Below the pieces are notes generated by a model. It had not been told where the DNA came from. It saw only the letters and a program-made list of their open reading frames with translations, and ran no database searches. A program made the position numbers and the translations under genes. DNA of 64,000 nucleotides from Janthinobacterium sp. J1-1 (lineage in GTDB: Bacteria > Pseudomonadota > Gammaproteobacteria > Burkholderiales > Burkholderiaceae_D), in NCBI RefSeq assembly GCF_030944405.1, contig NZ_CP132339.1, positions 1,178,001 to 1,242,000 on the forward strand, written 5' to 3'. Positions 22,911-56,997 of the stretch are shown piece after piece. Positions within the stretch are counted from its first letter, which is position 1. Every line of letters begins with the position of its first letter.

Positions 22911-23027
22911 ATGATCAACATGCCAAGGCTGCCCATCAATCAGCCGCAGCGCGTAGTGCCGCCTTTCCTGTTACGCCACATCCCATGGCGGTCATCGTTT
23001 GCGACAGAAGAAATCAATGGATCATAA
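22911..23027 (+). CDS. Possible 38-residue leader peptide gene
   Basis: ATG at 22911 preceded by AAGGCGG at a four-base spacing. It runs 38 codons (MINMPRLPIN...ATEEINGS) to TAA at 23025-23027, 11 bases into the next gene in another frame. The overlap and ribosome site suggest a translated leader coupling to the first large gene of the tubulin-like cluster. The peptide is Pro/Arg-rich, has no recognised domain, and could be a chance frame. Confidence 0.33.
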   Translation: MINMPRLPINQPQRVVPPFLLRHIPWRSSFATEEINGS

Positions 23028-24507
23028 AACCACGGGAGAATGGCTGCTGCAGTCCGGCGTCTGGATTGCCGATGAAGCCCGGTCAGGAATGCAATTTGAA
23101 CGTAGTGCCGCAGGCAAGGCGGTGTCGCCGCGGTTGACCAGCGACGATATCGGCCAGCTGATGCGCACGCCGCGCCTGCCCGGCGACGCCACGGTGCAGT
23201 TTCCGCCCGAATTTCATTTCAGTCCGTTTACGGGCGCTACCCTGCAGGCGCCGACTACCGCCGGCCAGGCCAGCGCCTGGCTGCCGCCGTTTGGTGCGCG
23301 TCCGCTCAACAGCAGCGCCATGCCCGGCGCCACCGGCCTGCGCCAGACGGCCGTGCCGATCAAGCTGGCGCGCAGCCCGGCGCGCGACGAGCCTGCCGAT
23401 TCCCTGGCCAATGCCGATCCCGACGCCACGATGCCCACGCCGCCGCCCGGCGAGCACGCGTTTTTCTCGGCCCGCTTCGGCACCACCGGCGCGGCCTTGC
23501 TGGCGCTGGACGCGCGCAAGGGTTCCTTGTACGGCTGGCTGCCCGGTTCGCAGCACTGGCTGGCGCTGGAGTCCTCGCAAGGCGGCCTGCTGTCCGAATG
23601 CCTGCTGGGCGAGACGGCCTGGCGGGCAGAACTGGCCACCGGCTGGAACAGCCGCCTGTACCTGCCCAGCGGCCATGGCCTGGCCTGCATCACGCCCGAT
23701 CTTCCTTCGCTGAGCTACCAGGTCGAACATTTCGGCGATGCGCCGTCGGCCGCCGCGCCGGTCTGGTTCCAGGGCCGGCTGTGGGCGCCGCTGCAAGGGC
23801 CCGACGGCGTGATCCGCTTCCTGAACCTCGATGCCCAGCATGCCTTGGGCGCGGAAGTAGTGCTCGACGGCGCGGTGTCGTTGGGCCGTGTCAGCGCGCC
23901 GGTGGCGTATGGCCGCAGCGTGATCTGGCCGTGCGAACATGGCCAACTGCGCCTGCAGCAGCGCCAGGACGGCGGCATGGCGGCCAGCTGGATGCCGTGG
24001 CCGGCCGGCCTGCAGCCGCAATTCGATTTTGGCTGCCCCTATCTGTCGCGCGATGGCGACCTGTGGCAGCTGTGCTTTGACGTCGTCGCCGACCGCTATC
24101 TGTACCTGAAGCTGGGCACGCAAGGCGAAACGGTGGAGGCGATGGAGCCGCGCCTGTGCTCGGGCAGTTTCAATTACCGCTTTTCCACCAAGCTGAAAAC
24201 CGCGCCGTGGCTGGAGCTCGAGCGCGGCAATGACGGCGGCAGCAGCAAGTCGGTGATGCCGCTGCTGGAAGCGGGCGAGACCGTATTGGGCGTGCGCTTT
24301 GAAACCCGCAGCAGCCTCGACAGCGTGCTGCGCTCGGAAGAGCGCATGTATGCGCAACTGCTGCAGGACGACGGCGTGCGCGAACTGCCGTTCCACGCGT
24401 TTTCGGTGGCCGAACCGTGGCGCATGCGCCTGTTTGCGCACCAGGGCACGCTGTGGGCGTATCACCCCTTGCTCAATCGTATGGACGGCTGGAAGCTGCA
24501 AGCATGA
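23017..24507 (+). CDS. Beta-rich cytosolic protein of the tubulin-like cluster, unknown family
   Basis: 496 residues; I do not recognise a family. No signal peptide or TM segment. Residues about 1-130 are low in structure and rich in Pro, Ala and Thr. From about 145 onward there is a run of repeated strand-like units with W/Y-rich motifs (KGSLYGWLPGSQHWLALES, APVWFQGRLWAPLQG, YLSRDGDLWQLCFD, RMRLFAHQGTLWAYHPL) suggestive of a beta-propeller. ATG at 23017 is used; a TTG six codons upstream is also open. It overlaps the vWA-like gene by ATGA, so the two products are probably made in concert. Confidence 0.82.
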   Translation: MDHKTTGEWLLQSGVWIADEARSGMQFERSAAGKAVSPRLTSDDIGQLMRTPRLPGDATVQFPPEFHFSPFTGATLQAPTTAGQASAWLPPFGARPLNSSAMPGATGLRQTAVPIKLARSPARDEPADSLANADPDATMPTPPPGEHAFFSARFGTTGAALLALDARKGSLYGWLPGSQHWLALESSQGGLLSECLLGETAWRAELATGWNSRLYLPSGHGLACITPDLPSLSYQVEHFGDAPSAAAPVWFQGRLWAPLQGPDGVIRFLNLDAQHALGAEVVLDGAVSLGRVSAPVAYGRSVIWPCEHGQLRLQQRQDGGMAASWMPWPAGLQPQFDFGCPYLSRDGDLWQLCFDVVADRYLYLKLGTQGETVEAMEPRLCSGSFNYRFSTKLKTAPWLELERGNDGGSSKSVMPLLEAGETVLGVRFETRSSLDSVLRSEERMYAQLLQDDGVRELPFHAFSVAEPWRMRLFAHQGTLWAYHPLLNRMDGWKLQA

Positions 24508-25988
24508 ACCCGATGAAACGCGTGATTTTGCGCATGCTGGGCGCCGTCGCGGCGCTGGCGCTGGCCGCTCCCTTGCAGGCGGCAGGCATCCAGCAGGCTT
24601 TCCTGGTGCAGAACTCGGGCTGGATGGAGCCGTTTTATACCGACCAGCAATCGCAGCTGAAAGCCCTGGTCGGCGCCGTGGCGCAGGCCGCCAGCACGCC
24701 CGACGACCAGCTGTTTTTGCTGGCCTTCAGCCAGAGCAGCGGCGGCAATGTCTCGCCCGCGCTGCTGGGGCAAGGGCGCGGCGCGGCCGCCATCAACGCC
24801 CAGCTGGCGCCGCTGGGCCTGGCGCGCAAGGGCAAGGGCGGCGCGCTGGCCGACACGGACTTCCAGGAAGCCGTGACGAAAACCATTACGGGACCGTTCC
24901 GTTCGGCGTCCGGCATCGTGTGGATTTTTACCAATAACAAGAACAGCCCCAATAACGACAGCCAGACGGCCGAGCGCAACCGCGATTTCTACCGTCTGCT
25001 GCACCTGGAGCCATCGATCACCAAGACCTTGGTGTTTCCTTTGCGTATGCCGGTACAGGGCAAGCTCTACAGCGCCAAGGGCCTGATGGTGTATGCGCTG
25101 GCGTATGGCCAGCCGGCCGCCGACGCCTTGACCCGCATCCAGGCCGAAGGGCGGCTGTCGAAGGTGCTGACGCGCGCGCCGGCGCGCTTGAAACCGGTCG
25201 ACCAGGACGCCGTGCGCATCGTGCCGCAGTCGGTCAAGAACAGCCCGAACGTGCACGCCAGCCTGGGCCGCGATGGCCGCACCATCGTGCTCGACGTGGA
25301 GGCGGCCAGCCTGGTGCCCCAGGTGGTGCTGCAGGCTTCGCTGCAAAACATGTTTTTCCCGTATGTGATCGACAACGCCACGGTGCGGGCGGCGCTGGCC
25401 GGCCAGTCGGCGCCGCTGCAGGTGACGCCCGATACCATCAAGGGTTTGCAGCCGGGCGCCAGCCAGTCTGTCGAAGTGCGCTTCGACTTGCCGATGGCGC
25501 AGATACCGTCGCCGTGGTCGGCCCAGGCCCTGTCGGCCATGGGCAAGCAGGTGCTGCTGCCGATGACGGCGACGGTCGGTTTGGCGGACCAGCGCCTGGC
25601 GCTGTCAACCGGCTTTGCCACTGAATTGCAGGAACTGTTCCCCGGCGACCCGATCTCGGAAGTATTCACGCCACCCGACAGCGTGCGCGCCTCGCAGGCC
25701 ACGGTGCCGCTGCTGGTGCGCATCCAGTACCCGCTGCTGCCGGTGCTGCTGATCATCGGCACCATCCTGCTGCTGGTGCTGGCATTTATTCTGTTCGGCC
25801 TGCTCGGCACGCGCAGCAAGCGCTACCGCGTGGTGGTTGACGGCGTGGCGCGCCAGGTCGTGCTCAAGCCGTTCAAAAGCGTGGTCATCAGGGACGACGG
25901 CGGGCGCGATATCGGCGAACTCAAGCGTGGCTTGGGCAAGCCGTCCATCGTGCGCGTGGCCGACGGCCATACGCTGATACTGGCTTGA
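24504..25988 (+). CDS. Membrane-anchored vWA-like protein with degenerate metal site
   Basis: 494 residues. A Sec signal peptide (cut near LQA-AG, residues 25-28) precedes a vWA-like fold: strand plus QNSGWM (36-41) sits where a MIDAS DxSxS is expected, then DDQLFLLAFSQSSGG (67-81), and a later strand GIVWIFTNNKNSP (137-149). Residues about 180-400 are beta-rich. One strong TM helix (410-434) and a ~60-residue cytosolic beta-rich tail complete it, so the body faces the periplasm. The missing Asp and Ser suggest metal-independent binding. It is coupled by ATGA to the upstream gene and followed by the small membrane protein 41 bases on. The vWA assignment is by pattern only. Confidence 0.72.
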   Translation: MNPMKRVILRMLGAVAALALAAPLQAAGIQQAFLVQNSGWMEPFYTDQQSQLKALVGAVAQAASTPDDQLFLLAFSQSSGGNVSPALLGQGRGAAAINAQLAPLGLARKGKGGALADTDFQEAVTKTITGPFRSASGIVWIFTNNKNSPNNDSQTAERNRDFYRLLHLEPSITKTLVFPLRMPVQGKLYSAKGLMVYALAYGQPAADALTRIQAEGRLSKVLTRAPARLKPVDQDAVRIVPQSVKNSPNVHASLGRDGRTIVLDVEAASLVPQVVLQASLQNMFFPYVIDNATVRAALAGQSAPLQVTPDTIKGLQPGASQSVEVRFDLPMAQIPSPWSAQALSAMGKQVLLPMTATVGLADQRLALSTGFATELQELFPGDPISEVFTPPDSVRASQATVPLLVRIQYPLLPVLLIIGTILLLVLAFILFGLLGTRSKRYRVVVDGVARQVVLKPFKSVVIRDDGGRDIGELKRGLGKPSIVRVADGHTLILA

Positions 25989-26029
25989 TACGCCCCTTTT
26001 ATATTCCCCTTACTTTTTCGAGGCAGACG

Positions 26030-26470
26030 ATGGCACAAGATACTCCCAAAGACAACGCAGGCTTTACCTTGCCACCACCGGCGGCCGAGCCGGCAACACC
26101 GGCCACGCCAGCCACCGCCGCACCCGCCACCAGCGCCAGCGTCGAGACCGCGCCAGCGCTGGACCAGGTCGGCGCCACCGACACCTCGTCGCGCGACACC
26201 CTGATCGGCGGCGCCGTGCTGCTGGTACTGTTCGTCGCCTTTTTCTTTGCCAAGAACGCGTATGCCAACGGCCTGGTGGGCAAGCGCGTGTCGCCGAACA
26301 AGGCCAATGCCTCGGGCTGGTGGCTGTTCATCTTCCTCGCCAGCCTGGCCACCGCCGTGGTGCTGGCGGCCGTGAACTCGCATAAATTCCTGGCGCCCCT
26401 GTTCATGGGGCCGCTGGTGCTGGTCGGCCTGGTGGCGCTGGTGCTCACATTTACTTCCAGCAAAAACTGA
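26030..26470 (+). CDS. Small two-TM protein of the tubulin-like cluster
   Basis: 146 residues. An Ala/Pro/Thr-rich N-terminal 50 residues, then two TM segments (about 58-73, LIGGAVLLVLFVAFFF, and about 97-115) and a third hydrophobic stretch near the C-terminus (120-140). The N-terminus has no signal peptide and is probably cytosolic. No recognised domain. Start at 26030 after a GAGGCAGACG ribosome site. It sits between the vWA-like gene and the tubulin-like gene with short gaps (41 and 39 bases), so it is likely a membrane partner of both. Confidence 0.78.
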   Translation: MAQDTPKDNAGFTLPPPAAEPATPATPATAAPATSASVETAPALDQVGATDTSSRDTLIGGAVLLVLFVAFFFAKNAYANGLVGKRVSPNKANASGWWLFIFLASLATAVVLAAVNSHKFLAPLFMGPLVLVGLVALVLTFTSSKN

Positions 26471-26509
26471 TTGCCCGCGCCGGCACCGAACTCCCGTTAA
26501 GGAAACACC

Positions 26510-29500
26510 ATGTCAGACACACTGAACCAGACCACCGCCGCGCCTGGCGAGCGCAAGCAGGACAAGATCATCGATTTGCGCCCCACCTTGTTCATCGGCG
26601 TGGGCGGCACCGGCATGCAGGTGCTGATGCGCGTGCGCCGGCGCATCCTCAATACCTTGTGGGGCAACCCGGGCCAGCGCCAGCGGGTCGACAAGCTCGA
26701 TGAATTTCCGGTGGCGCAGTTCATACACTTCGACCTGGACAGTGGTGCGGTGGTGGAAAGCGGCGAATCGCAGGCGCAGGACCTGCAATTCGACCTGCTG
26801 AAATTTACCGACGATGAAAAGATCGTCGGTTCGTTTGACGCCGACAAGTACGGCCGCGACGACGATTCGCTCGAGCGCTATCCGCACATCAAGGAATGGC
26901 TGCCGCTGACGCCGCAAAAAATCCGCGACCTGAACTTCGACATGCAGGCCGGCGCCGGCCAGGTGCGCGCCGTGTCGCGCCTGTATTTCTTCGACAAATA
27001 CAGCAAGGTACGCGACAAGATCCGCCTGAAGCTGAAGAACCTGAAGGCCGGCCTGTCGCACGAGCGCCAGTTGAGCGAGCTGGGCCTGCGCATGGAGCCG
27101 GGCCGCTTCCGTATCGTGGTGGTCGGCTCGGTGGCCGGCGGCACCGGTTCCGGCTCCTTCCTCGACATGGGCTACCTGGCGCGCTGGATCGCCGAGACCG
27201 AGGTCGAGCATGCGGACGTGGAACTGATGCTGTTCCTGCCGAGCGGCTTTACCCGCAACAACAAGGACCGCACCGAAGGCAACGGCTATGCGGCGCTGAT
27301 GGAGCTGGAATCGGCGATGATGGGCAACCAGAACTACCTGAGCCGCTGGGACAGCTATGACCGGCCCAAGCTGGCTCGCGTGCCGTACAGCGAAGTGTTC
27401 CTGGTCGACTCGGGCAACCTGGCCCAGCAGCATACCGACAGCGTCAACGACATCTATCATATGGTGGCCGACTCGCTGTTCGAGGATTTTGCCTCGGCCG
27501 ACTTCGCGCGCGCCAAGCGCTCGATCGCCGTCAACCAGGCGCAGCACAAGAATTCGATGTACAAGGCACCGGTGCCGCAGAACCGCTTCGGCGACATGCG
27601 TTTGTATTTCTCGCAGCGCTACTCCTCGTTCGGCATGGCCGTGCTCGATACACGCCAGGAAGCGGCGCGCGATGAACGCGCCCACCGCTGGGCCGGCGCC
27701 ATGCTGAAAGCGTTTTTTGGCGTGGGCGGCAGCGACGCCGGTGCGAATCGCGCCAATGACGACCAGCGCAATGATTTCATGGGCGCGCACATGGGCTTGC
27801 GCGCCGTGCCGTTCGACGACTTCCCCGTGTTTTCCGACAAGAGCATCGAGCTGAAACGTTCGAATGGCGCCTTCGAGGATTTCCAGGTGGTCGACGACCT
27901 GCTGGCCGAGCGCCAGGGCAATTTGCTCAGCGGCGTGGAAGAGCGCGTCAACCGCCGTGTCGACGAGATCCGCACCGGCTACGACCGCAAGGAATGGCCG
28001 GCCCAGTTGCGTGACGCCGTGCGCCAGCTCGAACGCGACGCCGTGCGCGACCAGGATTCCACCGCCGACACCACCGAAGACCGCATCGCCAAGCGCCGCG
28101 CGGAACTGTTCGGCCATATCAAGCAGGTGGTGCGCGACCAGTTGTACGGCTACCTGGACAACAAGGAATTTGGCGGCCTGGAATATGTGCTGTCGCTGGT
28201 CGAACAGATGAAGGACCGCATCGAAGCACCGGGCAGCGGCCTGATCGCACAGATCGACACGAATGCCGAACGCTATCGCGAAATCAAGGAAGCCGTGCGC
28301 ACGCGCGAATACGAGCGCCTGCTGAACAACCTGGAACAGACCCGCGGCGGTTTCTTCGGCAGCGGCGAGAAACAGGCCGGCGTGGTGATGGACCATTTGC
28401 GCACCGAAATCGCCAATGCGCTCAAGTTCCACCTGCGCGCGCGCGCCGCCGACGAGGCGGTATTGCTGCTGCGCGACATTTCGCGCTGGCTGGGCAACCG
28501 CACCGGCGTCGATGCCGAAGGCCGGGCCGTGTGGAATGGCCTGGTCGGCGAGTTGCAGCTGGGCCGCGCCGCCGTGCTCGACATGCTGAACCAGCTGCAG
28601 ACCGCCAATGTTATCGTCCAGAAAGACCTGCAGAAAGACCATGCGACCGCCATCGTCGTGCCCGTCACGCTGGCCGATATCGCCATGCCGAGCGCGGCCA
28701 CCTTGCGCGACTGGGCCGATGAAGCGTTCAAGGACATCGGCGGCTCCAAGACCCTGTTTCCGATGCTGGGCGATGTGGCCCAGCGCGGCGAGATCTTGAA
28801 CAAGGTCAAGCGCATGGCGGAAAACCGCCTGGCCAGCATGGGTGTCAACGACCAGGAGGCGGCCAGGGCCGACCCGCTATTCCTGGCGCTCGACCAGATG
28901 GACCCGGCGCGGCGCCAGGATTATTTCCGCAAGCTGCTGGCCTGCGCCATGCCGTGGATCGACGCCAATATGGTGGGCGAGTTCACGGTCAAGGCCGACC
29001 AGTACAAATGCGTGATCGGCGTGGCGGGCGCGGTGGCCTTCAAGGCCAAGTTTGGCGCGGAAATCAATGCCTGCGTGCAGACCCAGGCCGGTATTACCAG
29101 CAGCCAGGTCGAGATCGTGGAAACCGGCATCGCCGGGCGCGCCGTCTGCTATTGCGAACTGGCCGGCGTGCCGCTGACGGTGCTGCGCGGCCTGGAAGGC
29201 TGGCGCACCAGCTACCGCAAGGAGAGCGACGAGGAAAAAGCACCGATCCATACGCATATCGATACCACCCAGTTCAACCATCCGGTCTCGCCGAGCACCG
29301 ATGAGATCCGCATGATGGCCGAACACTTCGGCCTGTTCCTGAAGGCCGTCATGCTGGGCATCCTGACGCGCCACAGCGGAAGAGTGGTGCCGCTGGGCCA
29401 GTATCTGTTTGCCATGGGGCGTGGCGACTTGCGCCGTATCGGCAACGAGCGCCTGATCCGCCAGAATGGCTTGCACAATGTCTTCCAGGGCCTGATCGAA

Positions 29501-30202
29501 TCGCGCGTGGCCGAGCGCCTGGCCGAGTTCGATGCGGCACAAACGGTGGCCCTGGCCGCGCTGGCCAGCTATTACGCCGACGAGGTGTACACGCCGCGCC
29601 TGGTATCGATCAATGGTGGTGTGCAACTGGACAACAAAGGCTTCGGCAATGCCATCGCCCGTGAAATCGCCGCCGATCTGCGCGAGAGCGCGCGCCGCAA
29701 GGGCCTGACCGATGCCGAGGTCACCAAGCTGGAGCAAAAGCTGTATGAAAACCTGAAGCTCTGGGCCAATGTGATACCGGAGTCGGACGCCGATGCGCAT
29801 GAGTGGGAAGTGCAGCCACCGGGAGAAAGTGGCTTGCCGCGGCTCAAATTCGCCATCAAGCCGGAAATGCTGGAAGCGGGCGCGCTGCAGGCGCTGTTTG
29901 CGCCACCAGCAGCTGCGGCTGCACCGGCGCCGACGGCGTTTGCCGCGGCAACGCTGGCACCGTCTTCGATGCCGTCCCTGGCGCCGGTCGAGCACCAATA
30001 TATGCTGGGCATCGACAGCAAGCCGCAAGGACCGTATACGGCGCAGCAGATTGCGCAATTCGTGCGCGCCGGCCAGATCGTGCCGGCCGCCACCAAAGTC
30101 TGGCGCGAAGGCATGCCGGCCTGGGTCGAACTGACGCAATTCCCCGAGCTGGCCTCGGCGCTGTTCAGCTCGATGCCATCGCTGTCGCCACCGCAGCTTT
30201 AA
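26510..30202 (+). CDS. Tubulin/FtsZ-like protein with C-terminal GYF_2-type domain
   Basis: 1230 residues. The N-terminal ~400 residues look like the Tubulin_2 (tubulin-like) family: a glycine-rich first loop after a strand (LFIGVGGTGMQ, 27-37), the tubulin/FtsZ signature loop V-A-G-G-T-G-S-G (208-215) after strand IVVVGSV, and NGYAALMELE where a T7-like region could fall. A long, mostly alpha-helical middle follows (about 430-1120), then an Ala/Pro linker and a GYF_2-like domain (about 1163-1218: YMLGID..PQGPYTAQQI...W.EGMPAW). No TM segment: cytosolic. It is about 2.5 times the size of tubulin or FtsZ. Probably a nucleotide-dependent polymer or scaffold; polymerisation is inferred. A GGAAACACC site precedes the ATG. 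Confidence 0.82.
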   Translation: MSDTLNQTTAAPGERKQDKIIDLRPTLFIGVGGTGMQVLMRVRRRILNTLWGNPGQRQRVDKLDEFPVAQFIHFDLDSGAVVESGESQAQDLQFDLLKFTDDEKIVGSFDADKYGRDDDSLERYPHIKEWLPLTPQKIRDLNFDMQAGAGQVRAVSRLYFFDKYSKVRDKIRLKLKNLKAGLSHERQLSELGLRMEPGRFRIVVVGSVAGGTGSGSFLDMGYLARWIAETEVEHADVELMLFLPSGFTRNNKDRTEGNGYAALMELESAMMGNQNYLSRWDSYDRPKLARVPYSEVFLVDSGNLAQQHTDSVNDIYHMVADSLFEDFASADFARAKRSIAVNQAQHKNSMYKAPVPQNRFGDMRLYFSQRYSSFGMAVLDTRQEAARDERAHRWAGAMLKAFFGVGGSDAGANRANDDQRNDFMGAHMGLRAVPFDDFPVFSDKSIELKRSNGAFEDFQVVDDLLAERQGNLLSGVEERVNRRVDEIRTGYDRKEWPAQLRDAVRQLERDAVRDQDSTADTTEDRIAKRRAELFGHIKQVVRDQLYGYLDNKEFGGLEYVLSLVEQMKDRIEAPGSGLIAQIDTNAERYREIKEAVRTREYERLLNNLEQTRGGFFGSGEKQAGVVMDHLRTEIANALKFHLRARAADEAVLLLRDISRWLGNRTGVDAEGRAVWNGLVGELQLGRAAVLDMLNQLQTANVIVQKDLQKDHATAIVVPVTLADIAMPSAATLRDWADEAFKDIGGSKTLFPMLGDVAQRGEILNKVKRMAENRLASMGVNDQEAARADPLFLALDQMDPARRQDYFRKLLACAMPWIDANMVGEFTVKADQYKCVIGVAGAVAFKAKFGAEINACVQTQAGITSSQVEIVETGIAGRAVCYCELAGVPLTVLRGLEGWRTSYRKESDEEKAPIHTHIDTTQFNHPVSPSTDEIRMMAEHFGLFLKAVMLGILTRHSGRVVPLGQYLFAMGRGDLRRIGNERLIRQNGLHNVFQGLIESRVAERLAEFDAAQTVALAALASYYADEVYTPRLVSINGGVQLDNKGFGNAIAREIAADLRESARRKGLTDAEVTKLEQKLYENLKLWANVIPESDADAHEWEVQPPGESGLPRLKFAIKPEMLEAGALQALFAPPAAAAAPAPTAFAAATLAPSSMPSLAPVEHQYMLGIDSKPQGPYTAQQIAQFVRAGQIVPAATKVWREGMPAWVELTQFPELASALFSSMPSLSPPQL

Positions 30203-30215
30203 TGAAGGACGTGTT

Positions 30216-31460
30216 GTGAACAAGTGTGTCAAGTGTCAATCGGTGCTGGTCGGCGGCGTAGCGTTCTGCCCGTTTTGCGGCCAGGGCGTGGCGGGTGCCG
30301 TCGCGCCGCCGCCATTGCCGAAACCGGTGGCGGCCGTGGTGCCACCGGTGCCGGCACCGGTTCCGGTCAAGGCTGAACCGAAGCCGGAAGCCAAGCCGGA
30401 ACCCAGGGTCGAGCCCAAGGTCGAGCCCAAGGTGGAACCCAAGCCGGCGCCGCAGCCGGTGCAGAAGCCTGTCCCACAGCCTGCACCGGTGCCCGTGCCC
30501 AAGCCTGTTCCCAAAGTGGAGCCCCCGGCCCAGCCGCCCGCACCGCCGAAAAAATGGCCGCGCTGGCTGGCCGGCATCGCCGTGCTGGCGCTGGTGATCG
30601 TGTATATGAACGGCAAGCCGGGCGGCAAAAGCGAATCGGCCTGCAATGACGCCATCGACAGCGGCCTGAAGCTGGTGGCCGACGGCAGCCTGGACGGTGC
30701 GCGCCAGAAGCTGGCGACGGCGAAAAACGTCTGCACCGGCAAGTCCAGCGCCAAGGCCGAAGACTTGCAGGCGGCTATCGGCAAGGCCGGCGCCGCAACG
30801 GCCGGCTGCCAGCGCAGCGTCAAGGCGATTGAAAATGCGCTCGACGGCAAGCGCTTGCAAAGCGCCGGCGAGGCCATCGCCAAGCTCGACGCCGATTGCG
30901 CCGGCGCCGCCACGGTGGAGTCCTTGCGCAAGCAGCTGGCGCGCCAGCAGGCGGCGGCCGCCTCGGTACAGGTGGGCGTGCGCCAGGCGCTCGACAACAG
31001 CGATGCCTCGGCGGCGCAAAACGGCATCGCCAAGCTCGAAGCGATCGATCGCGAATATCCGGAACTCAAACAGCTGAAAGCCGACTTGCAGGCCTTGAAT
31101 ACGCCCGCACCGGCACCGGTACCCACACCGACCCCGGCGCCAGCGCCAGCGCCGGCGCCGGTTGATCCGGCACCAACGCGCCCGATCCAGACCGAACCTG
31201 CCGCGCCGCGCGTGGTCGAACGTGCTGCGGCTGCTCCCGCACCGGCCGTCGACAATGGCGCGGCCATGCGCAACGAGATGGCGCAATCCTTCCTGCGCGA
31301 TGCCGAACGGGCCATGGCCGATGGCCGTTTCGACGCCGCCAAGACCTATCTGGACAGCGCGCGCCGCGTCGACCCGAACAACCCGCGCATCGACAGCCTG
31401 TCGCGCCGCATCCGCGACCGCGAGCGCCAGGTGCTGCAGACGGAAACCACGATCAAGTAA
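30216..31460 (+). CDS. Zinc-ribbon, proline-linker membrane protein
   Basis: 414 residues from a GTG start (GGA 8 bases upstream). The N-terminal zinc ribbon is C4-x2-C7 and C18-x2-C21 (KCVKCQ, FCPFCGQ). A ~80-residue tract of Pro/Lys/Glu/Val repeats (about 28-107, KPEP, VEPK, QPVP) leads to one TM helix (about 112-127, LAGIAVLALVIVYM). A periplasmic helical region (130-290), a second Pro-rich linker (295-325) and a TPR-like C-terminal helix set (about 350-414, SFLRDAERAMADGRFDAAKTYLDSARR) follow. The domain order puts the ribbon in the cytosol. It follows the tubulin-like gene by 13 bases. The Pro-rich tract could be a ligand for the GYF_2-like domain of its neighbour (inference). Confidence 0.8.
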   Translation: MNKCVKCQSVLVGGVAFCPFCGQGVAGAVAPPPLPKPVAAVVPPVPAPVPVKAEPKPEAKPEPRVEPKVEPKVEPKPAPQPVQKPVPQPAPVPVPKPVPKVEPPAQPPAPPKKWPRWLAGIAVLALVIVYMNGKPGGKSESACNDAIDSGLKLVADGSLDGARQKLATAKNVCTGKSSAKAEDLQAAIGKAGAATAGCQRSVKAIENALDGKRLQSAGEAIAKLDADCAGAATVESLRKQLARQQAAAASVQVGVRQALDNSDASAAQNGIAKLEAIDREYPELKQLKADLQALNTPAPAPVPTPTPAPAPAPAPVDPAPTRPIQTEPAAPRVVERAAAAPAPAVDNGAAMRNEMAQSFLRDAERAMADGRFDAAKTYLDSARRVDPNNPRIDSLSRRIRDRERQVLQTETTIK

Positions 31461-31478
31461 GTTACTTTGGAGCCTCTC

Positions 31479-32231
31479 ATGAACAAGACCACGTTGCGCG
31501 CCGCCGCCGCCCTGACCCTGACCGCCATGCTGGCCGGCTGCGCCACGGCACCCGGCAACCCGAACGGCGTACGGCAAGACACGCCATATCCGCAAGGCGG
31601 CCAGAATCCGCAAGCGGCCACCGACGATGACCCGTGCAGCGTGGGCGCGACCGCCGCCGCCGGCGCGGCCGTCGGTGCCTTGCTCGGTGCCTTTGTCAAC
31701 GGCAAGAAGGGCGCGCTGCAAGGCGCGGCCCTCGGTGGCGGCCTGGCCGCGGCCGGTTGCCTGGCGATCAATGTGAACTCGCGCCAGACCAAGACGGCGG
31801 CCCAGGCCGACCGCGACTATATCCGCGCGCGCGGCGCGCTGCCACGCGAACCGCAAGTGGTGTCGTACACGCCGCAGGTGAGCGCGGCCACCGTCAAGCG
31901 CGGCCAGCCGTTCAAGGTCAACTCGGTGGTGGAGCTGGTCAATGGCAGCGCGCAGAACGTCAACGACGTGCGCGAGGAACTGGTGGTGCTGGACCCGCAG
32001 GGCCAGCCCTTCAAGTCCGGCTCGAAGTCCTTGGCCAGCAATAACAAGACGGGCGGGCGCTTTGAAAACTCGTTCGAGCTGACCTTGCCGGCTGGCGTGT
32101 CGCAGGGCGTGTATGGCGTCAAGACCAATCTGTACGTCAACGGCAAGCTGGCCGCCACGCGCGATCTGCGCACGCAGCTGGTGATACTGGATGTGGAGAC
32201 GGGTGCCAACGCGCAGCTGGCGCTGCGCTGA
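31479..32231 (+). CDS. Glycine-zipper lipoprotein of the tubulin-like cluster
   Basis: 250 residues. Lipoprotein signal with lipobox LAGC (Cys21). Residues about 55-90 form a glycine-zipper segment (ATAAAGAAVGALLGAFVNGKKGALQGAALGGG, read as short motifs AAVGALLGA and GAALGGGLAA), a motif found in envelope-inserting proteins. The C-terminal half is a beta-sandwich-like domain (VKRGQPFKVNSVVELVNGS...VREELVVLDPQG). ATG at 31479 follows TGGAG by six bases. The residues after Cys21 (ATAPG) lack an inner-membrane-retention Asp, so an outer-membrane site is inferred. Last gene of the cluster, ending at a REP-type palindrome. Confidence 0.82.
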   Translation: MNKTTLRAAAALTLTAMLAGCATAPGNPNGVRQDTPYPQGGQNPQAATDDDPCSVGATAAAGAAVGALLGAFVNGKKGALQGAALGGGLAAAGCLAINVNSRQTKTAAQADRDYIRARGALPREPQVVSYTPQVSAATVKRGQPFKVNSVVELVNGSAQNVNDVREELVVLDPQGQPFKSGSKSLASNNKTGGRFENSFELTLPAGVSQGVYGVKTNLYVNGKLAATRDLRTQLVILDVETGANAQLALR

Positions 32232-50103: not shown

Positions 50104-50216
50104 CTGCTTGGCCTATCTTCTGTTTTTACGAAGTAATACTTCCATTATCTTCCATTTTTAAATCAATCGTGCGCACCTATACTCTGCCTCATGTTTGCAA
50201 ACTGATAGGAGAATTG

Positions 50217-51287
50217 ATGAAGCATTTTAGAGTGTCATTTTTAGTGACATTTATCTGCCTGGGCATCTCGGCCTGGTGGGGCTACACGCATGGCGGCGTG
50301 TCCACCATGCTGTCGGCCCTGGGTATTGCCGTGATCCTGGGCATCATGGAAGTGTCGCTGTCATTCGACAATGCGGTCGTCAATGCTTCTGTCCTGAAAA
50401 ACTGGGACAAATTCTGGCAAGGCCTGTTCCTGGGCGTAGGCATCATCATCGCCGTGTTCGGCATGCGCCTGCTGTTCCCGCTGGTGATCGTGGCGCAAGC
50501 GGCCGACCTCGGTTTGCTGGAAGTGTGGAACCTGGCGCTCAGCGACCCGGAACAGTATTCGATGCACCTGACGAATCACCATGCGGAAGTGGCGGCCTTC
50601 GGCGGTATTTTCCTGCTGCTGGTGTTCCTGAACTTCCTGCTGGACCATGAAAAAGAAACCCACTGGCTGGGCCGCTTCGAAGAAAAGCTGGGCGCGCTGG
50701 GCAAGGTTTCCTCGATTTCCGTGATGATCGCGCTGGGCACCCTGATGGCCAGCCTGAGCATGATAGACGAGGGCCAAAAACTGGTGGTGCTGACGGCGGG
50801 CCTGTGGGGTATTTTGACCTACGTCGGCGTCGACGTGATCAGCGGCTTGCTGGAAGGCGACAACGGTGACGGCAATATGGGCGACATCGTCAAGCGCGGC
50901 GGTATCGGCGGCTTTTTGTACCTGGAAGTGCTCGATGCCTCGTTCAGCTTTGACGGCGTGATCGGCGCGTTCGCCATCACCAAGGACGTGGTCATCATCA
51001 TGCTGGGCCTGGCCATCGGTGCGATGTTCGTGCGGTCGATGACGGTGTTCCTGGTCCGCAAGGGTACGTTGGATGAGTTCGTTTATCTGGAGCACGGCGC
51101 GCACTATGCGATCGGTATCCTGGCCGTGATCATGTTGGTCAGCATGAAGTTCCATGTGCCGGAGATTTTCACGGGCCTGATCGGCGTGGCCTTTATTCTC
51201 GCCTCGCTGTGGTCGTCGATCCGCTACAAGCGCCGGATGGCGCTGGAAGAAGACAAGCCTGACGTGCTGGAATCAGCCAAGGCATAG
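50217..51287 (+). CDS. DUF475/TerC-like integral membrane protein
   Basis: 356 residues, about nine TM helices, with the acidic TerC-type motifs in the membrane (MEVSLSFDNAVVNASVL and DASFSFDGVIGAFAITKDV). DUF475 belongs to the TerC/LysE-superfamily transporters and commonly sits beside terD genes, with metal-ion transport suspected. GATAGGAGAATTG puts AGGAG eight bases before the ATG at 50217. It opens the tellurite-resistance-type island. No manganese (yybP-ykoY) riboswitch is seen upstream. Confidence 0.9.
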   Translation: MKHFRVSFLVTFICLGISAWWGYTHGGVSTMLSALGIAVILGIMEVSLSFDNAVVNASVLKNWDKFWQGLFLGVGIIIAVFGMRLLFPLVIVAQAADLGLLEVWNLALSDPEQYSMHLTNHHAEVAAFGGIFLLLVFLNFLLDHEKETHWLGRFEEKLGALGKVSSISVMIALGTLMASLSMIDEGQKLVVLTAGLWGILTYVGVDVISGLLEGDNGDGNMGDIVKRGGIGGFLYLEVLDASFSFDGVIGAFAITKDVVIIMLGLAIGAMFVRSMTVFLVRKGTLDEFVYLEHGAHYAIGILAVIMLVSMKFHVPEIFTGLIGVAFILASLWSSIRYKRRMALEEDKPDVLESAKA

Positions 51288-51352
51288 CAGGTCTAAAAAG
51301 AATGCGCGGCAAACGACCACACCGGTTTGCCCGCCAGCAGCAGCAAGCGTCG

Positions 51353-51380
51353 CCGCCGGCCCGGGGAGTCGGGCCGGTGG
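51353..51380 (+). terminator. GC hairpin between DUF475 and terD
   Basis: CCGCCGGCCCG (51353-51363) and CGGGCCGGTGG (51370-51380) pair at 10 of 11 positions with a 6-base loop. There is no T tract, so it attenuates or marks the mRNA rather than terminating strongly. Confidence 0.4.
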
Positions 51381-51441
51381 AGGGCGCCAGGTGTTTGTAT
51401 TACGTATGCGGTACCTTCATTTCATATAGGAGAAATACATC

Positions 51442-52017
51442 ATGGCAATCAGTCTGCAAAAAGGCGGCAACGTCAACCTGAGCAAGGAAGCTCCCGGCAT
51501 CACCAAGATGACCATCGGCCTGGGCTGGGATGCGCGCGCCACCGATGGCGCCGCGTTCGACATCGACGGTTCGGTCTTCCTGCTGAAAGCGGACGGCAAG
51601 GTCCGTGCCGACGTCGACATGATTTTCTACAACAACCTGAAGTCGAGCGACGGCTCCGTTACCCACTCGGGCGACAACACCACCGGCGCCGGCGATGGCG
51701 ACGATGAAACCGTCACCGTCGACCTGTCGACCGTGCCGGCCGAGATCGACAAGATCGCCGTCTGCGTGACGATCCACGATGCCGAAGCGCGCAAGCAGAA
51801 CTTCGGCATGGTCTCGAAAGCCTATGTGCGTTGCATCAACGCCAATGGCAACACGGAAATCGCCCGCTTCGACCTGTCGGAAGACGGCTCGGCCGAAACG
51901 GCGATGGTGTTTGGTGAAATCTACCGCAACGGCGCGGATTGGAAATTCAAGGCCATCGGCCAGGGCTACAAAGGCGGTCTGGGTCCACTCGCAGCCTCGT
52001 TCGGCGTCGGCGTGTAA
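51442..52017 (+). CDS. terD: TerD family protein 1
   Basis: 191 residues. The TerD signature is clear: VNLSKEAPGITKMTIGLGWD at the start, DGAAFDIDGSVFLL, and the Ca2+-binding GDNTTGAGDGDDE (about 74-86), plus FGEIYRNGADWKFKAIGQGY near the end. TerD proteins bind calcium and form part of the ter stress system for tellurite, phage and oxidative damage. AGGAG at 51427 serves the ATG. It is followed after 190 bases by the AIM24-like gene. Confidence 0.95.
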   Translation: MAISLQKGGNVNLSKEAPGITKMTIGLGWDARATDGAAFDIDGSVFLLKADGKVRADVDMIFYNNLKSSDGSVTHSGDNTTGAGDGDDETVTVDLSTVPAEIDKIAVCVTIHDAEARKQNFGMVSKAYVRCINANGNTEIARFDLSEDGSAETAMVFGEIYRNGADWKFKAIGQGYKGGLGPLAASFGVGV

Positions 52018-52030
52018 GGTCACCACACCA

Positions 52031-52126
52031 AACCTACTGCGCGGTGCAATTTGCGGCCGGCGATGCTCGCTGTACTAGAGTACAGCTGCGCTTCTCAGCC
52101 ACAACTTGCATCCGCTCGCTACGGTT
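52031..52126. repeat. Long imperfect palindrome in the ter island
   Basis: Arms of about 46 bases (AACCTACTGC at the left, GCTACGGTT at the right) pair imperfectly about a perfect core GCTGTACT-AG-AGTACAGC (52069-52086). It fills the gap between terD and the AIM24-like gene. The core resembles the GTAC-centred palindrome at 34562-34624, suggesting a shared repeat family. As RNA it would form a large hairpin. Confidence 0.6.
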
Positions 52127-52207
52127 TTGTGCGGTGCCGATACTGTAGTAAAACATTCCGATGCTGATCACCCCATCATCATCAAAGCCAGGAAAGGAAC
52201 AGTTTGT

Positions 52208-52903
52208 ATGCCAGTTTTTAGTGTCACCGGGGATATCGACCCGTTTCTGCATGTATCGCTGGCCAAGGGCGAGAAGATCTATTGCGAATCCGACGCGATG
52301 GTGATGATGGAAACCAATCTTGAGCTGAAAGGCAAGATGACCGGCGGCCTGGGCGCTGCGCTGATGCGCACCTTTGCCAACGGCGAGTCCTTCTTTCAGC
52401 AGCATGTCGAGGCCTTGCGCGGCGATGGCGATTGCCTGCTGTCGCCGACCTTGCCGGGCGCCATGCGCGTGCTGGACGTGGGCGCCCAGCAATACATGAT
52501 CAGCGACGGCGCGTTTGTCGCGGCCAGTTCCGGCGTGGAACTGAAGGTGCGCACGCAGAGCCTCGGCAATGCGCTGTTTGCCCAGAGCGGTGGTTTCTTT
52601 ATCACCGAAACGGCCGGCAGCGGCCAACTGGCGGTGTCCGGTTTTGGCGCCATGTCCGAACTGGACGTGGTGCCCGGCAAGGACGTGGTGATCGATAACG
52701 CCCACGTCGTGTGCTGGGACAGTCGCCTGCAATACGAGATTTCCATTACGACCGGCAGCAGCGGGGGATTTTTGGGTAACCTGATCAACAGCCAGACCAG
52801 CGGTGAAGGCATGGTGCTCAAATTTACGGGCACCGGCAAGATATTGATCTGCTCACGCAACCGCGCGGCCTTTCTCGCCTGGACCCAGAGCAAGCCGGCG
52901 TAA
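52208..52903 (+). CDS. AIM24/TIGR00266 family protein
   Basis: 231 residues, a beta-rich TIGR00266/AIM24 fold: DPFLHVSLAKGEKIYCESDAMVMME, GGLGAALMRTFANGESFF, then VVPGKDVVIDNAHVVCWD and GEGMVLKFTGTGKILI. The biochemical role is unknown, but members often sit in ter or stress islands with TerD. ATG at 52208 with AGGAA upstream; an in-frame extension to 52106 lies in the palindrome and is rejected. It precedes the second terD by 38 bases. Confidence 0.9.
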   Translation: MPVFSVTGDIDPFLHVSLAKGEKIYCESDAMVMMETNLELKGKMTGGLGAALMRTFANGESFFQQHVEALRGDGDCLLSPTLPGAMRVLDVGAQQYMISDGAFVAASSGVELKVRTQSLGNALFAQSGGFFITETAGSGQLAVSGFGAMSELDVVPGKDVVIDNAHVVCWDSRLQYEISITTGSSGGFLGNLINSQTSGEGMVLKFTGTGKILICSRNRAAFLAWTQSKPA

Positions 52904-52941
52904 CCGTCAACTCAACAACTAACCAAACAGGAGCAATGCGT

Positions 52942-53523
52942 ATGTCTGTCAATTTGAGCAAGGGCCAGAAGATTTCTCTGGACAAGGAAGCTGGCACCAG
53001 CCTGTCCCGCATCACCATGGGCCTGGGCTGGGATTCGGTCAAGACCAAGGGTTTCCTGGGCTTCGGCTCGAAAACCGAAGCGGTCGACCTGGACGCCTCG
53101 TGCGTGCTGTTTGACGACAGCAACAAGGTGTCCGATATCGTCTGGTTCCGCCAGCTGAAAAGCAAGGACGGCAGCATCGTTCACACGGGCGACAACCGTA
53201 CCGGCGCAGGCGATGGCGACGACGAGCAGATCAATGTCGACCTGGCCCATGTGCCGGCCGGCGTGAAAAGCCTGGTGTTTACCGTCAACAGTTTTACGGG
53301 CCAGAACTTCTCGCAGGTGGAAAACGCCTATTGCCGCATTTTGAATGCCAGCAATAACCAGGAAATCGCGCGTTTCAACCTGTCGGTCCAGGGCGCCCAC
53401 ACGGCGCAGATCATGGCCAAGCTGTACCGCCATAACGGCGAATGGAAAATGCACGCGATCGGCGAAAACGGCAATGGCCGCACATTCGATGATTTGATGC
53501 CGCAGATCACCGTGCATTTATAA
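52942..53523 (+). CDS. terD: TerD family protein 2
   Basis: 193 residues. N-terminus SVNLSKGQKISLDKEAG, then ITMGLGWDSVKTKGFLGFG, DLDASCVLFDDSN, and the calcium loop GDNRTGAGDGDDEQI. It differs from TerD 1 in the FLGFGSK insertion, so it is a paralogue and not a recent duplicate. ATG at 52942 is preferred: it lies 8 bases after AGGAG, whereas 52936 is only 2 bases away. The small YqaE-like gene follows 77 bases later. Confidence 0.94.
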   Translation: MSVNLSKGQKISLDKEAGTSLSRITMGLGWDSVKTKGFLGFGSKTEAVDLDASCVLFDDSNKVSDIVWFRQLKSKDGSIVHTGDNRTGAGDGDDEQINVDLAHVPAGVKSLVFTVNSFTGQNFSQVENAYCRILNASNNQEIARFNLSVQGAHTAQIMAKLYRHNGEWKMHAIGENGNGRTFDDLMPQITVHL

Positions 53524-53851: not shown

Positions 53852-53888
53852 AATGGCCCCACGAGCAATCGTGCGGGCCATTTTCTTT
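53852..53888. terminator. Intrinsic terminator after the ter island
   Basis: AATGGCCC-CACGA (53852-53864), loop GCAA, TCGTG-C-GGGCCATT (53869-53882), then TTCTTT. A 13-base stem with one bulged C and a short T run. It ends the plus-strand ter island and lies at the 3' end of the convergent ABC permease gene. Confidence 0.85.
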
Positions 53889-56208
53889 CAGGGCATCGCG
53901 AACTGGCAGGCCAGCATGGCCACGTTATAGCCGGCATGCACCAGCATCGGCGCCAGCAGCGAGCCGCTCTTCTCATAGGTCCAGCCCGTGCACAGACCCA
54001 GCACGAATACCGGCAGCATCGAGGCCGGCGGATGCATGATGGCAAAGACCAGTGAGCTGGTCACGATGGCCTGCCAGGCTGGCAGCGAGCGGCGCAGTCC
54101 GCCTTGCAGCAGGCCACGGAAAATGAATTCCTCGCACAGCGGGGCGGCCAGCACCGCCAGCGCGCTCAGCCACAGCCAGCTCCACTTGCCATCGAGCAGG
54201 GGTGAGACGGGAGGGGCAAGGCCATAGGCGTGCAGCAACATGGTAGAGCCGACGCCGAATACGGCGGCCAGCGCCGCGCTGCCCAGCGCGAGGCGCCACG
54301 TTGAGTGCCCTTGGAATATGCGCGGCACGCCGGCCGCCTTGCTGCGCCAGTAGACCAGGCGTGCCGCTATATAGGTCAGCACGCCAGCGATGCCGAAGGC
54401 CAGGGTGGCCTGCGGCATCGTCGTGTGACCTTTTCCCGGAAGTATCAGCAAGACCAGCACTTGTGCCGCGAAAAACAGCATGGCGGCCATCAGGCCGTCG
54501 GCGCCCGAGACACGCGCCGGCGGCAAGGCAGCCGGGTCCAGCAGATATGGCACTGCGTCGCGTGCCTTTTGCCACAGGGCCACCGCCAGCGCGCCCGTGA
54601 GCACCACGAACACCAGCTGCTGCACCACGCTGCCGGCCGCCAGCGCGGCGATATACAAACCCGTCAGCAGCAGGTACAGATACATGTATGCGGGGCGCAT
54701 CTTTGCCGCCGCTTCCGTGGCCAGCGGGTCGCTGGCAAACACGCCCAGCGCCACGCCGATCACCGCATACAGGGGAATGCCGGCCAGCGCCAGCAGCATC
54801 AGGCCCGCCATGTCCCAGCGCCAGGCCGGCATCCATGCCAGCGCCACGCCGAACATGATGAGGGGATAGAGCATCGCCAGCACCGCCCACAGCTGGGCCT
54901 TTTCGCGCAAGGCCTGTTCCACGCCGGCGGGGAAGGTGTACAGCAGCCACAGCGCGCCGCCTTCCTTGTTCAGGTTCTGGAAGGCCGACATCATCAGGGT
55001 ATAGGTGCCGAGAAAAAAGCCGGTCGACGCCACCAGGGCCGGGCTGTCGAGCAGCTCGCGCACATCGTGCAGGCGGCCCGTGAAGACCACCTGGCCACCC
55101 AGTATCAGCAGGGGCAGCAACATGGTTTGCACCAAGAAATTGCGGTCGCGTCCGAGCAGGGTCAGTTCGCGCCGCTGGATCACGCTGCCGATCTGCCAGC
55201 GGCCAGGCGGGACCGGCACGGGCTTGTTGCCCGCCTTGCGCACGCCGGCGCGCTGGCCTGAGCCGACCACGCCGTGACGCAGCTGGCGGCGCAAGATCGC
55301 CATGCCCAGCGCCAGCAAGACGATCGACTGCGCCAGCAAGGCGCCAGCCGCCAGCAGGGCGGTACCGGTATCTTGCGCATTGAGCATGGTCACCACCAGG
55401 CCGGGCGGCATCCAGGCGCTCCAGGCCGGCATGGCGGCGGCCCAGGCAAACGCAAAGCCATCCTTGCCCATGCCGAACGACATGCCGGCATACATGGGGG
55501 CCAGCGACACGATGGAAATCATCGCCTGCAAATTGCCCAGCTTCGATGGCGCCAGCGACAGGCGCAGGCCCGTGTCGACCAGGGTGCGCAGCATGGCGGC
55601 CAGCAAGAGCAGCGCCAGGCTGACGGCCAGCGCCAGCAGCGGCGAGAGCCAGCCATGGCCCGAATACCAGGCAACCATGGTAGTGGTGGGCAGCACGGCC
55701 AGCAGGCCGGCCGGATTGACCACGCTGCGCTCGAACACGCGCGCCCACAGCAGGGTAGTTACCGGAGCGGGCAGGGTGACCAGCCATTCCAGGTCCCAGT
55801 CGGGGCGCGCCAGGTCGCCGGTACCCAGCGGCACCAGCACGCTGACCAGCCACAGCAAGGCCAACTGAAACGTCAGGCCGGCCAGCAGCACCGCGCTGAA
55901 CGGTGTGGTGCTCAAGTGTGCGATCACGGCCGGCATGGCGTGATGCAGGCCGCAAGCGGCCACGGCGTCGAGCTGGCAGTGCAGATTGAGCACGCTGTTG
56001 CGGGCCATGTGCCCAAACGAAAACAGCATGGGCGCCATCAGCAAGACGCCCACGAGCCAGCGGCCGCGCCGTTTGCCCGGCGTGGCCGCGCGGCTCTTGC
56101 CGCCTTGAGCGCGCTGGAACAGCAAGGCTGAACCGCTGAGGTTGAGCAGGCGCTGCAGGCGCAAACGGATCAGCAGCCAGATCGCCCGCAAGGTCGAGGG
56201 CGGGGCCA

Positions 56209-56212
<4 letters not shown>
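53888..56212 (-). CDS. ABC-2 exporter permease fused to CPBP intramembrane protease
   Basis: 774 residues. The N-terminal ~560 residues have about ten TM helices in an ABC-2-type exporter permease layout. The C-terminal ~220 residues form a CPBP (Abi/Rce1-like) protease domain with the glutamate pair and Arg E694-E695-x3-R699 (CEEFIFRG), H727 (AIMHPP) and H759-x3-N763 (LVHAGYN). All catalytic residues seem intact. Such fusions pair export with cleavage of a peptide or prenylated substrate; the target is unknown. ATPase gene overlaps by 4 bases at 56209. Confidence 0.88.
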
Positions 56213-56952
<740 letters not shown>

Positions 56953-56997
56953 GGTGCGCCTTGCCAATCAACTCAATGCACGATGATAACGCCCCGC

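Follow-up and report, generated by a model that had tools for sequence, protein, structure and literature searches.

A tubulin-family gene unit with a fixed five-gene core, candidate docking modules and occasional TerD joins in Janthinobacterium sp. J1-1 and its relatives

Introduction

The FtsZl1 family of tubulin/FtsZ-like proteins was described in 2010 by Makarova and Koonin (PMC2875224), whose main text places its genes in vWA-linked operons and predicts a role in membrane remodelling; in PMC9871819, the family is equated with PF13809 (Tubulin_2). In 2020, other tubulin/vWA neighbourhoods were filed under conflict systems (PMC7159879). Among the matches listed from open-licence PubMed Central (PMC) papers, no experiment on FtsZl1/Tubulin_2 proteins was found. 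In this work, we discuss a member of this class in a 64,000-nucleotide stretch of DNA from Janthinobacterium sp. J1-1 ("the window", positions 1178001-1242000 of its 6.95-Mb genome), where six genes, g1 to g6, lie on one strand at 23017-32231 according to the list of open reading frames (ORFs). The unit is built around the tubulin homologue g4, with g1-g5 as its invariant core.

The run had been presented in the initial annotation as an undescribed kind of system, whereas the FtsZl1/vWA operon class was already set out in the main text of PMC2875224; supplementary tables of the same paper give lineage-specific neighbour families, among which some of the partners of the unit may figure. The question is now narrowed to five genes that are found together at all complete loci examined, along with a set of named docking elements and a pair of separate TerD joins.

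A five-gene core with constant order

The unit consists of the following genes; coordinates refer to the window and give likely starts, alternative ones being available.

23017..24507, + strand: g1, cytosolic protein without signal peptide and with repeated blade-like stretches (both by eye)
24504..25988, + strand: g2, signal-like helix, periplasmic vWA fold, Ig-like domain, transmembrane (TM) helix and small cytosolic beta tail
26030..26470, + strand: g3, small protein whose N-terminal tail is of low complexity and which has three TM segments; three hydrophobic segments in 79/79 relatives
26510..30202, + strand: g4, tubulin/FtsZ-like protein of the Tubulin_2/FtsZl1 type, 1230 residues
30216..31460, + strand: g5, zinc ribbon, Pro-rich linker, TM segment and periplasmic helical/TPR-like part; GTG start
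31479..32231, + strand: g6, accessory lipoprotein with lipobox MLAGC, glycine zipper and a weak MG2 match in its C-terminal part

The tight, same-strand packing seen initially is confirmed, with a 4-nucleotide (nt) overlap between g1 and g2 followed by gaps of 41, 39, 13 and 18 nt. Only the beginning of the run, placed at 22911, has to be moved, as it precedes the earliest start codon available to g1 in its frame (22999); the likely g1 start is at 23017.

An alignment of 18 g4 proteins served to scan named genomes for relatives; 288 stretches encoding one were returned, and the best 80 loci were used. The counts cover only those loci with enough flanking DNA. Upstream of g4, g3 was present in 78/78, g2 in 76/76 and g1 in 72/72 loci, and a g5 relative followed g4 in 67/67, one of them, locus L096, being a TerD form treated below. 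The complete order g1-g2-g3-g4-g5 was kept in 65/65 loci, so that the proposed survey of gene order comes out clearly for the core. An ORF with a zinc ribbon adjoined g4 in 70/70 loci, the remaining ten having less than 240 nt of DNA after g4. The idea of six obligatory parts is not supported, since g6 occurs in just 36 of the 65 loci. As g4 was the route to all 80 loci, the fixed order applies to the g4 subfamily and not to Tubulin_2 as a whole.

Purifying selection was seen on each of the six genes, with ratios of non-synonymous to synonymous substitution (dN/dS) of 0.10-0.25 against locus L061, 0.18-0.29 against L131 and 0.12-0.41 against L065 (g1 highest).

Distribution and apparent transfer of the unit

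Of the 145 genomes of the host's family, 32 had a Tubulin_2 match (34 matches in all), as did all seven other same-genus genomes listed; the closest named g4 relatives are those of Janthinobacterium. Twenty of the 34 regions were examined, and 19 contained g1-g4; the twentieth is a second Tubulin_2 gene of the host, with other neighbours. Beyond the family, PF13809 was found in 8/398 genomes of the phylum, host genome included. The g2 alignment had 2/385 matches in the class of genome G499 (one being G499 itself), and the order to which the genome of L096 belongs gave 1/301, L096's own.

The five-gene order spans beta- and gammaproteobacteria and one Desulfovibrionaceae genome. In a g4 tree of 38 rows, which has long branches, the Desulfovibrionaceae member joins a betaproteobacterial metagenome-assembled genome (MAG) (100/100) and Azoarcus joins Rhodanobacter (100/99); the Oxalobacteraceae fall in two distant clades. 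These cross-lineage joins, taken from the g4 tree, are read as apparent horizontal transfer of the whole unit.

A tubulin-like gene regularly found without these partners had been named as a finding that would speak against the proposed machine. Within this subfamily the core partners are present at every complete locus (65/65), but the second host locus and two other Tubulin_2 loci, L163 and L164, do lack them: no g1-g6 relatives were found at any of the three with the profiles used. The second host gene (L032:7307-10291, about 994 residues) has a Pro-rich protein, a 448-residue lipoprotein-like protein and small proteins as neighbours. A single contig of Massilia sp. YIM B02769 holds the unit twice (L080 and L129), with g4 proteins 65% and 42% identical to that of the host.

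Across 35 related loci, 11 neighbour clusters reach four groups, a count that includes the core genes and an antisense ORF. The remaining ones (an ABC ATPase, a TPR-GGDEF protein, a histidine kinase at a distance of about 8 kb and one further cluster) are presumably generic.

The tubulin-family protein g4

The recognisable elements of g4 are as follows.

26597..26617, + strand: T1-type loop GVGGTGM, residues 30-36; GxGGTGM in 76/79 relatives
27134..27154, + strand: T4-type loop AGGTGSG, residues 209-215; AGGTG[SA]G in 79/79 relatives
27494..27511, + strand: putative T7-like SADFAR, residues 329-334; [ST]xDFA in 77/79 relatives
27542..28909, + strand: long, mainly helical middle, residues about 345-800, from the secondary structure of the model
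28997..29449, + strand: alpha/beta region, residues about 830-980, candidate C-terminal tubulin domain
29999..30151, + strand: GYF_2 domain, residues 1164-1214; PF14237 E 4.4e-11, PDB 7z3c E 1.1e-6

Its assignment as a 1230-residue tubulin/FtsZ-like protein, first suggested by the GGTGSG loop, holds at two levels. In the profile search that had been proposed for the 26510-30202 product, Tubulin_2 (PF13809) matched residues 27-398 with an E-value of 3.6e-59, and in a structure search with the model, the predicted fold matched CetZ, tubulin and FtsZ, the N-terminal region being tubulin-like. We thus regard g4 as having, by prediction, a tubulin-type nucleotide-binding fold with the T1 and T4 glycine loops. 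SADFAR, assigned by likeness, is presumably the counterpart of the FtsZ/tubulin T7 loop. Behind the FtsZ-like domain, the model has long helices across residues 476-708, as in the helical region of FtsZl1 proteins, and the structural alignments with tubulin and CetZ end at residues 921-926. With narrow alignments, hhalign gave no link between the N-terminal part of g4 and 15 FtsZ proteins (E 0.03, probability 1.7), nor between its C-terminal part and FtsZ; the fold claims for g4 and g2 therefore rest on Pfam and predicted structures. As a probable member of the FtsZ/tubulin superfamily, g4 may bind GTP and assemble at the inner membrane.

The C-terminal GYF_2 domain had been overlooked initially. 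It scores 42.8 bits against a Pfam cut-off of 25.8, and PF14237 is present in 118 of the 120 g4 relatives listed.

The partner proteins

The elements located in the partners are listed here.

24609..24626, + strand: QNSGWM of g2, where the vWA metal motif DxSxS is expected; 75/78 relatives
25737..25808, + strand: TM-like helix of the g2 model, residues 412-435
26060..26074, + strand: GFTLP of g3, a short linear motif of the form GFx[LIV]P; 79/79 relatives, 0.4% of shuffled tails
30225..30281, + strand: zinc-ribbon cysteines CVKC...CPFCG of g5, from the sequence
30564..30608, + strand: TM segment WLAGIAVLALVIVYM of g5, from the sequence by eye

The vWA-like character of g2 stands in part: the model comprises an N-terminal helix (residues 3-20), a predicted vWA fold (25-226), an Ig-like domain (234-409) and the TM-like helix, but the DxSxS metal ion-dependent adhesion site is absent, QNSGWM taking its place. 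No link was obtained with hhalign between g2 and the three vWA domains of the ter cluster at L096 (probability 1), and the sequence-profile searches of PDB with the g1 and g2 alignments returned nothing below E 0.4. For g1, 126 relatives were found, of which 120 were listed, and no family was matched in Pfam. The small membrane protein and the zinc ribbon were both recognised correctly at the outset, as g3 and as the CxxC...CPFC opening of g5, respectively.

The Zn_Ribbon_1 and TPR matches of g5 are weak and below their Pfam cut-offs. A TM-like score above 1.5 behind the zinc ribbon was reached in only 50/70 loci, and the value for L098 lies inside its TerD domain. Two g5 relatives (L105:13747-15003 and L162:13446-14609) carry PEGA in place of the TPR-like second half, which therefore varies across lineages; L162 is a distant member, its g5 beginning about 660 nt past g4. 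As to g6, described initially as a glycine-zipper lipoprotein, the lipobox MLAGC is there, whereas the matches to Gly-zipper, like those to DUF533 and MG2, are weak and below the Pfam cut-offs.

Joins with the Ter system

In three loci, from one Methylococcaceae MAG and two Thiodictyon MAGs, the g5 slot directly behind g4 is occupied by a protein in which a TerD domain comes after the zinc ribbon (E-values 9e-71, 6e-61 and 1e-60). They form one gammaproteobacterial clade of the g4 tree (100/100) and are counted as one event. At the Methylococcaceae locus (L096:13700-23632), the unit runs directly into a same-strand ter cluster in the order TerD, vWA, TerD, vWA, TerY, PP2C, kinase-like, TerD, AIM24, TerD. 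Another join is found among the 120 g1 relatives listed: in P0351, TerD is fused to the C-terminal part of g1; this g1 part is nearest to Rhodoferax (57%) and distant from the Methylococcaceae one (33%). By sequence comparison, the g1-TerD fusion is separate from the zinc ribbon-TerD join, giving two separate TerD joins.

TerD occurs in 3/99 related loci, and no TerD was found by Pfam in g1-g6 of the host. The nearest host ter genes (51442-53523) belong to a cluster at 50169-53523, 19 kb downstream of the unit, with a DUF475/TerC-type gene, TerD, AIM24 (52208-52903, E 1.9e-54) and a second TerD; five other same-genus genomes have TerD about 23-25 kb from their Tubulin_2 match. Across the 145 genomes of the family, 27 contain both Tubulin_2 and TerD, 5 Tubulin_2 only, 11 TerD only and 102 neither, which gives a Fisher p of 1e-15 by genome and about 0.002 by genus (5 genera shared), kinship being ignored. 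TerD was not found in 10 of the 14 unit-bearing genomes tested; Ter is thus not required, and the unit as a general Ter component was rejected.

Genomic surroundings

The unit is flanked on one side by a LysR gene and a cytidylyltransferase-like (rfaE2-type) gene and on the other, on the opposite strand, by SpoU-methylase and phosphoribosyltransferase (comF-type) genes. A scan for promoters and terminators gave no clear signal (promoter-like 1 versus 1.2 expected; terminator-like 12 versus 8.2). Further along the window, a large CAAX-protease-family protein adjoins an ABC transporter ATPase (53888-56967).

Possible function

We tentatively favour, as a plausible though by no means assured reading, that the unit is a membrane-tethered tubulin-family scaffold or GTP switch working with an envelope-spanning complex; this switch or scaffold would be held at the inner membrane and coupled across the envelope, with exchangeable outputs. 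In such a machine, g4 would bind GTP and assemble at the inner membrane, g5, with its cytosolic zinc ribbon, TM segment and periplasmic part, together with g2 and g3 would link it to the periplasm, and g6, if present, could extend the link to the outer membrane. The GYF domain would bind a Pro-rich stretch, either in the linker of g5 or at the ends of g4. Two other ligand candidates were rejected, PPPG..xF of g1 as not universal (34/75) and PPP within residues 1-150 of g3 as present in just 8/79. The g3 tail, periplasmic by the positive-inside rule, may be the ligand of the g2 vWA pocket; we propose that through this binding a periplasmic event could alter the g4 assembly state, or vice versa. 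The g5 protein would be the exchangeable output, with a periplasmic part of helical/TPR or PEGA type in the cases examined and TerD in one clade, the TerD type passing a signal to the Ter stress pathway.

A bolder version is more doubtful, and we consider it improbable as a whole: a horizontally exchanged signalling or anchoring machine that spans the envelope, with a tubulin GTP switch, a docking code of its own (GYF, GFx[LIV]P tail, metal-free vWA receptor) and a zinc-ribbon output socket for TPR, PEGA or TerD, driving the Ter response in some lineages. If it were true, a tubulin homologue would be an upstream driver of the Ter stress response in those lineages.

The remodelling role predicted in 2010, with g4 filaments bending or budding the inner membrane and the vWA and membrane parts as assembly factors, seems unlikely to us here. 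The main text of PMC2875224 infers it from the grouping of FtsZl1 with vWA and membrane proteins, which g2 and g3 resemble; however, part of the inference depends on GTPase, kinase and OmpA partners, which were found neither among the six genes nor in the conserved core of their relatives, and a referee remarked in the same paper that the parts sit in different compartments.

Envelope defence, in which a periplasmic part would sense attack by phages or toxins, with the tubulin-like switch triggering an effector, had been suggested initially and is by analogy conceivable, albeit distinctly unlikely. Tubulin and membrane-vWA neighbourhoods are classed as conflict systems (PMC7159879), Ter clusters are said to inhibit phages, TerD-linked variants of the unit exist, and its distribution is patchy with apparent horizontal spread. 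Nothing positive was found beyond this analogy, however. The anti-phage models of PADLOC-DB 2.0.0 gave four weak matches only, to ZorA (4.3e-5, 20.2 bits) and another (0.54) on g5 and to C3a168 (0.013, 13 bits) and GajA (0.042) on g4; no g2 relative was found in plasmid, phage and viral-contig collections, and no effector domain by Pfam among g1-g6. The purifying selection on all six genes and the presence of a Tubulin_2 match throughout the seven other same-genus genomes listed also speak against it.

Still less probable is an anchor for adhesion, motility or transport, analogous to a focal adhesion, in which a GTP-driven cytosolic scaffold would grip a trans-envelope complex, as in Myxococcus gliding. 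It would fit the match of the g4 GYF domain to GltJ/AglX and the zinc ribbon, TM segment and TPR-like parts of g5. GltJ of that system carries both a zinc ribbon and a GYF module. A referee of PMC2875224 suggested transport or signalling. Yet the likeness to GltJ is confined to the GYF region, and none of the conserved neighbours was recognised as Glt-like (by eye, three clusters scanned). Mere co-transcription without a common complex, for which the frequent absence of g6 (36/65 with g6) could be cited, is very improbable given that the five genes stay together in 65/65 loci across lineages with apparent horizontal exchange.

Comparison with described systems

In the main text of PMC2875224, FtsZl1 proteins share with g4 an N-terminal FtsZ/tubulin-like domain, a long helical or coiled-coil middle, vWA and membrane partners and a sparse distribution; the vWA partner gene of this class is represented by g2. 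Unlike the proteins described there, g4 ends in GYF_2 and has the fixed partners g1, g3 and zinc-ribbon g5, and the vWA metal motif, intact in the majority of the FtsZl1 class, is lost in g2. GTPase, kinase and OmpA partners, frequent but not universal in that class, were not found by Pfam among g1-g6.

The GAP1-N2 systems of PMC7159879 resemble the unit in that a tubulin protein is accompanied by a vWA protein of the membrane, the vWA part lying outside the cytosol. In contrast, they are centred on a GAP1 GTPase, of which there is none among g1-g6, and have FNIII components, and their tubulin-bearing members are from Firmicutes and Actinobacteria.

With GltJ/AglX of Myxococcus gliding (PDB 7z3c), the common element is GYF_2 of g4 (E 1.1e-6). 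The NCBIfam GltJ model reached 25 bits against a cut-off of 450, and no GltJ-like one-polypeptide layout was found in the unit. GltJ has its zinc ribbon beside the GYF module and a TM segment, and it is to this layout that the modules of g4 and g5 are likened. In the unit, they are split, with GYF in g4 and zinc ribbon and TM segment in g5, and the putative GTPase is a tubulin homologue.

The likeness to the Ter system (TerD, TerY, PP2C, kinase; PF02342, PF15616) lies in the continuation of the L096 unit into a ter cluster and in its zinc ribbon-TerD g5; the host operon differs in having no TerD, its ter genes being 19 kb away. As far as the matches listed from open-licence PMC papers and the 2010 main text show, the fixed architecture of GYF, zinc ribbon, metal-free vWA and GFxLP, together with the TerD exchanges, has not been described. 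The tubulin family and its vWA operon class are thus already known, and the fixed partner set, the candidate docking modules and the occasional wiring to Ter are the new leads.
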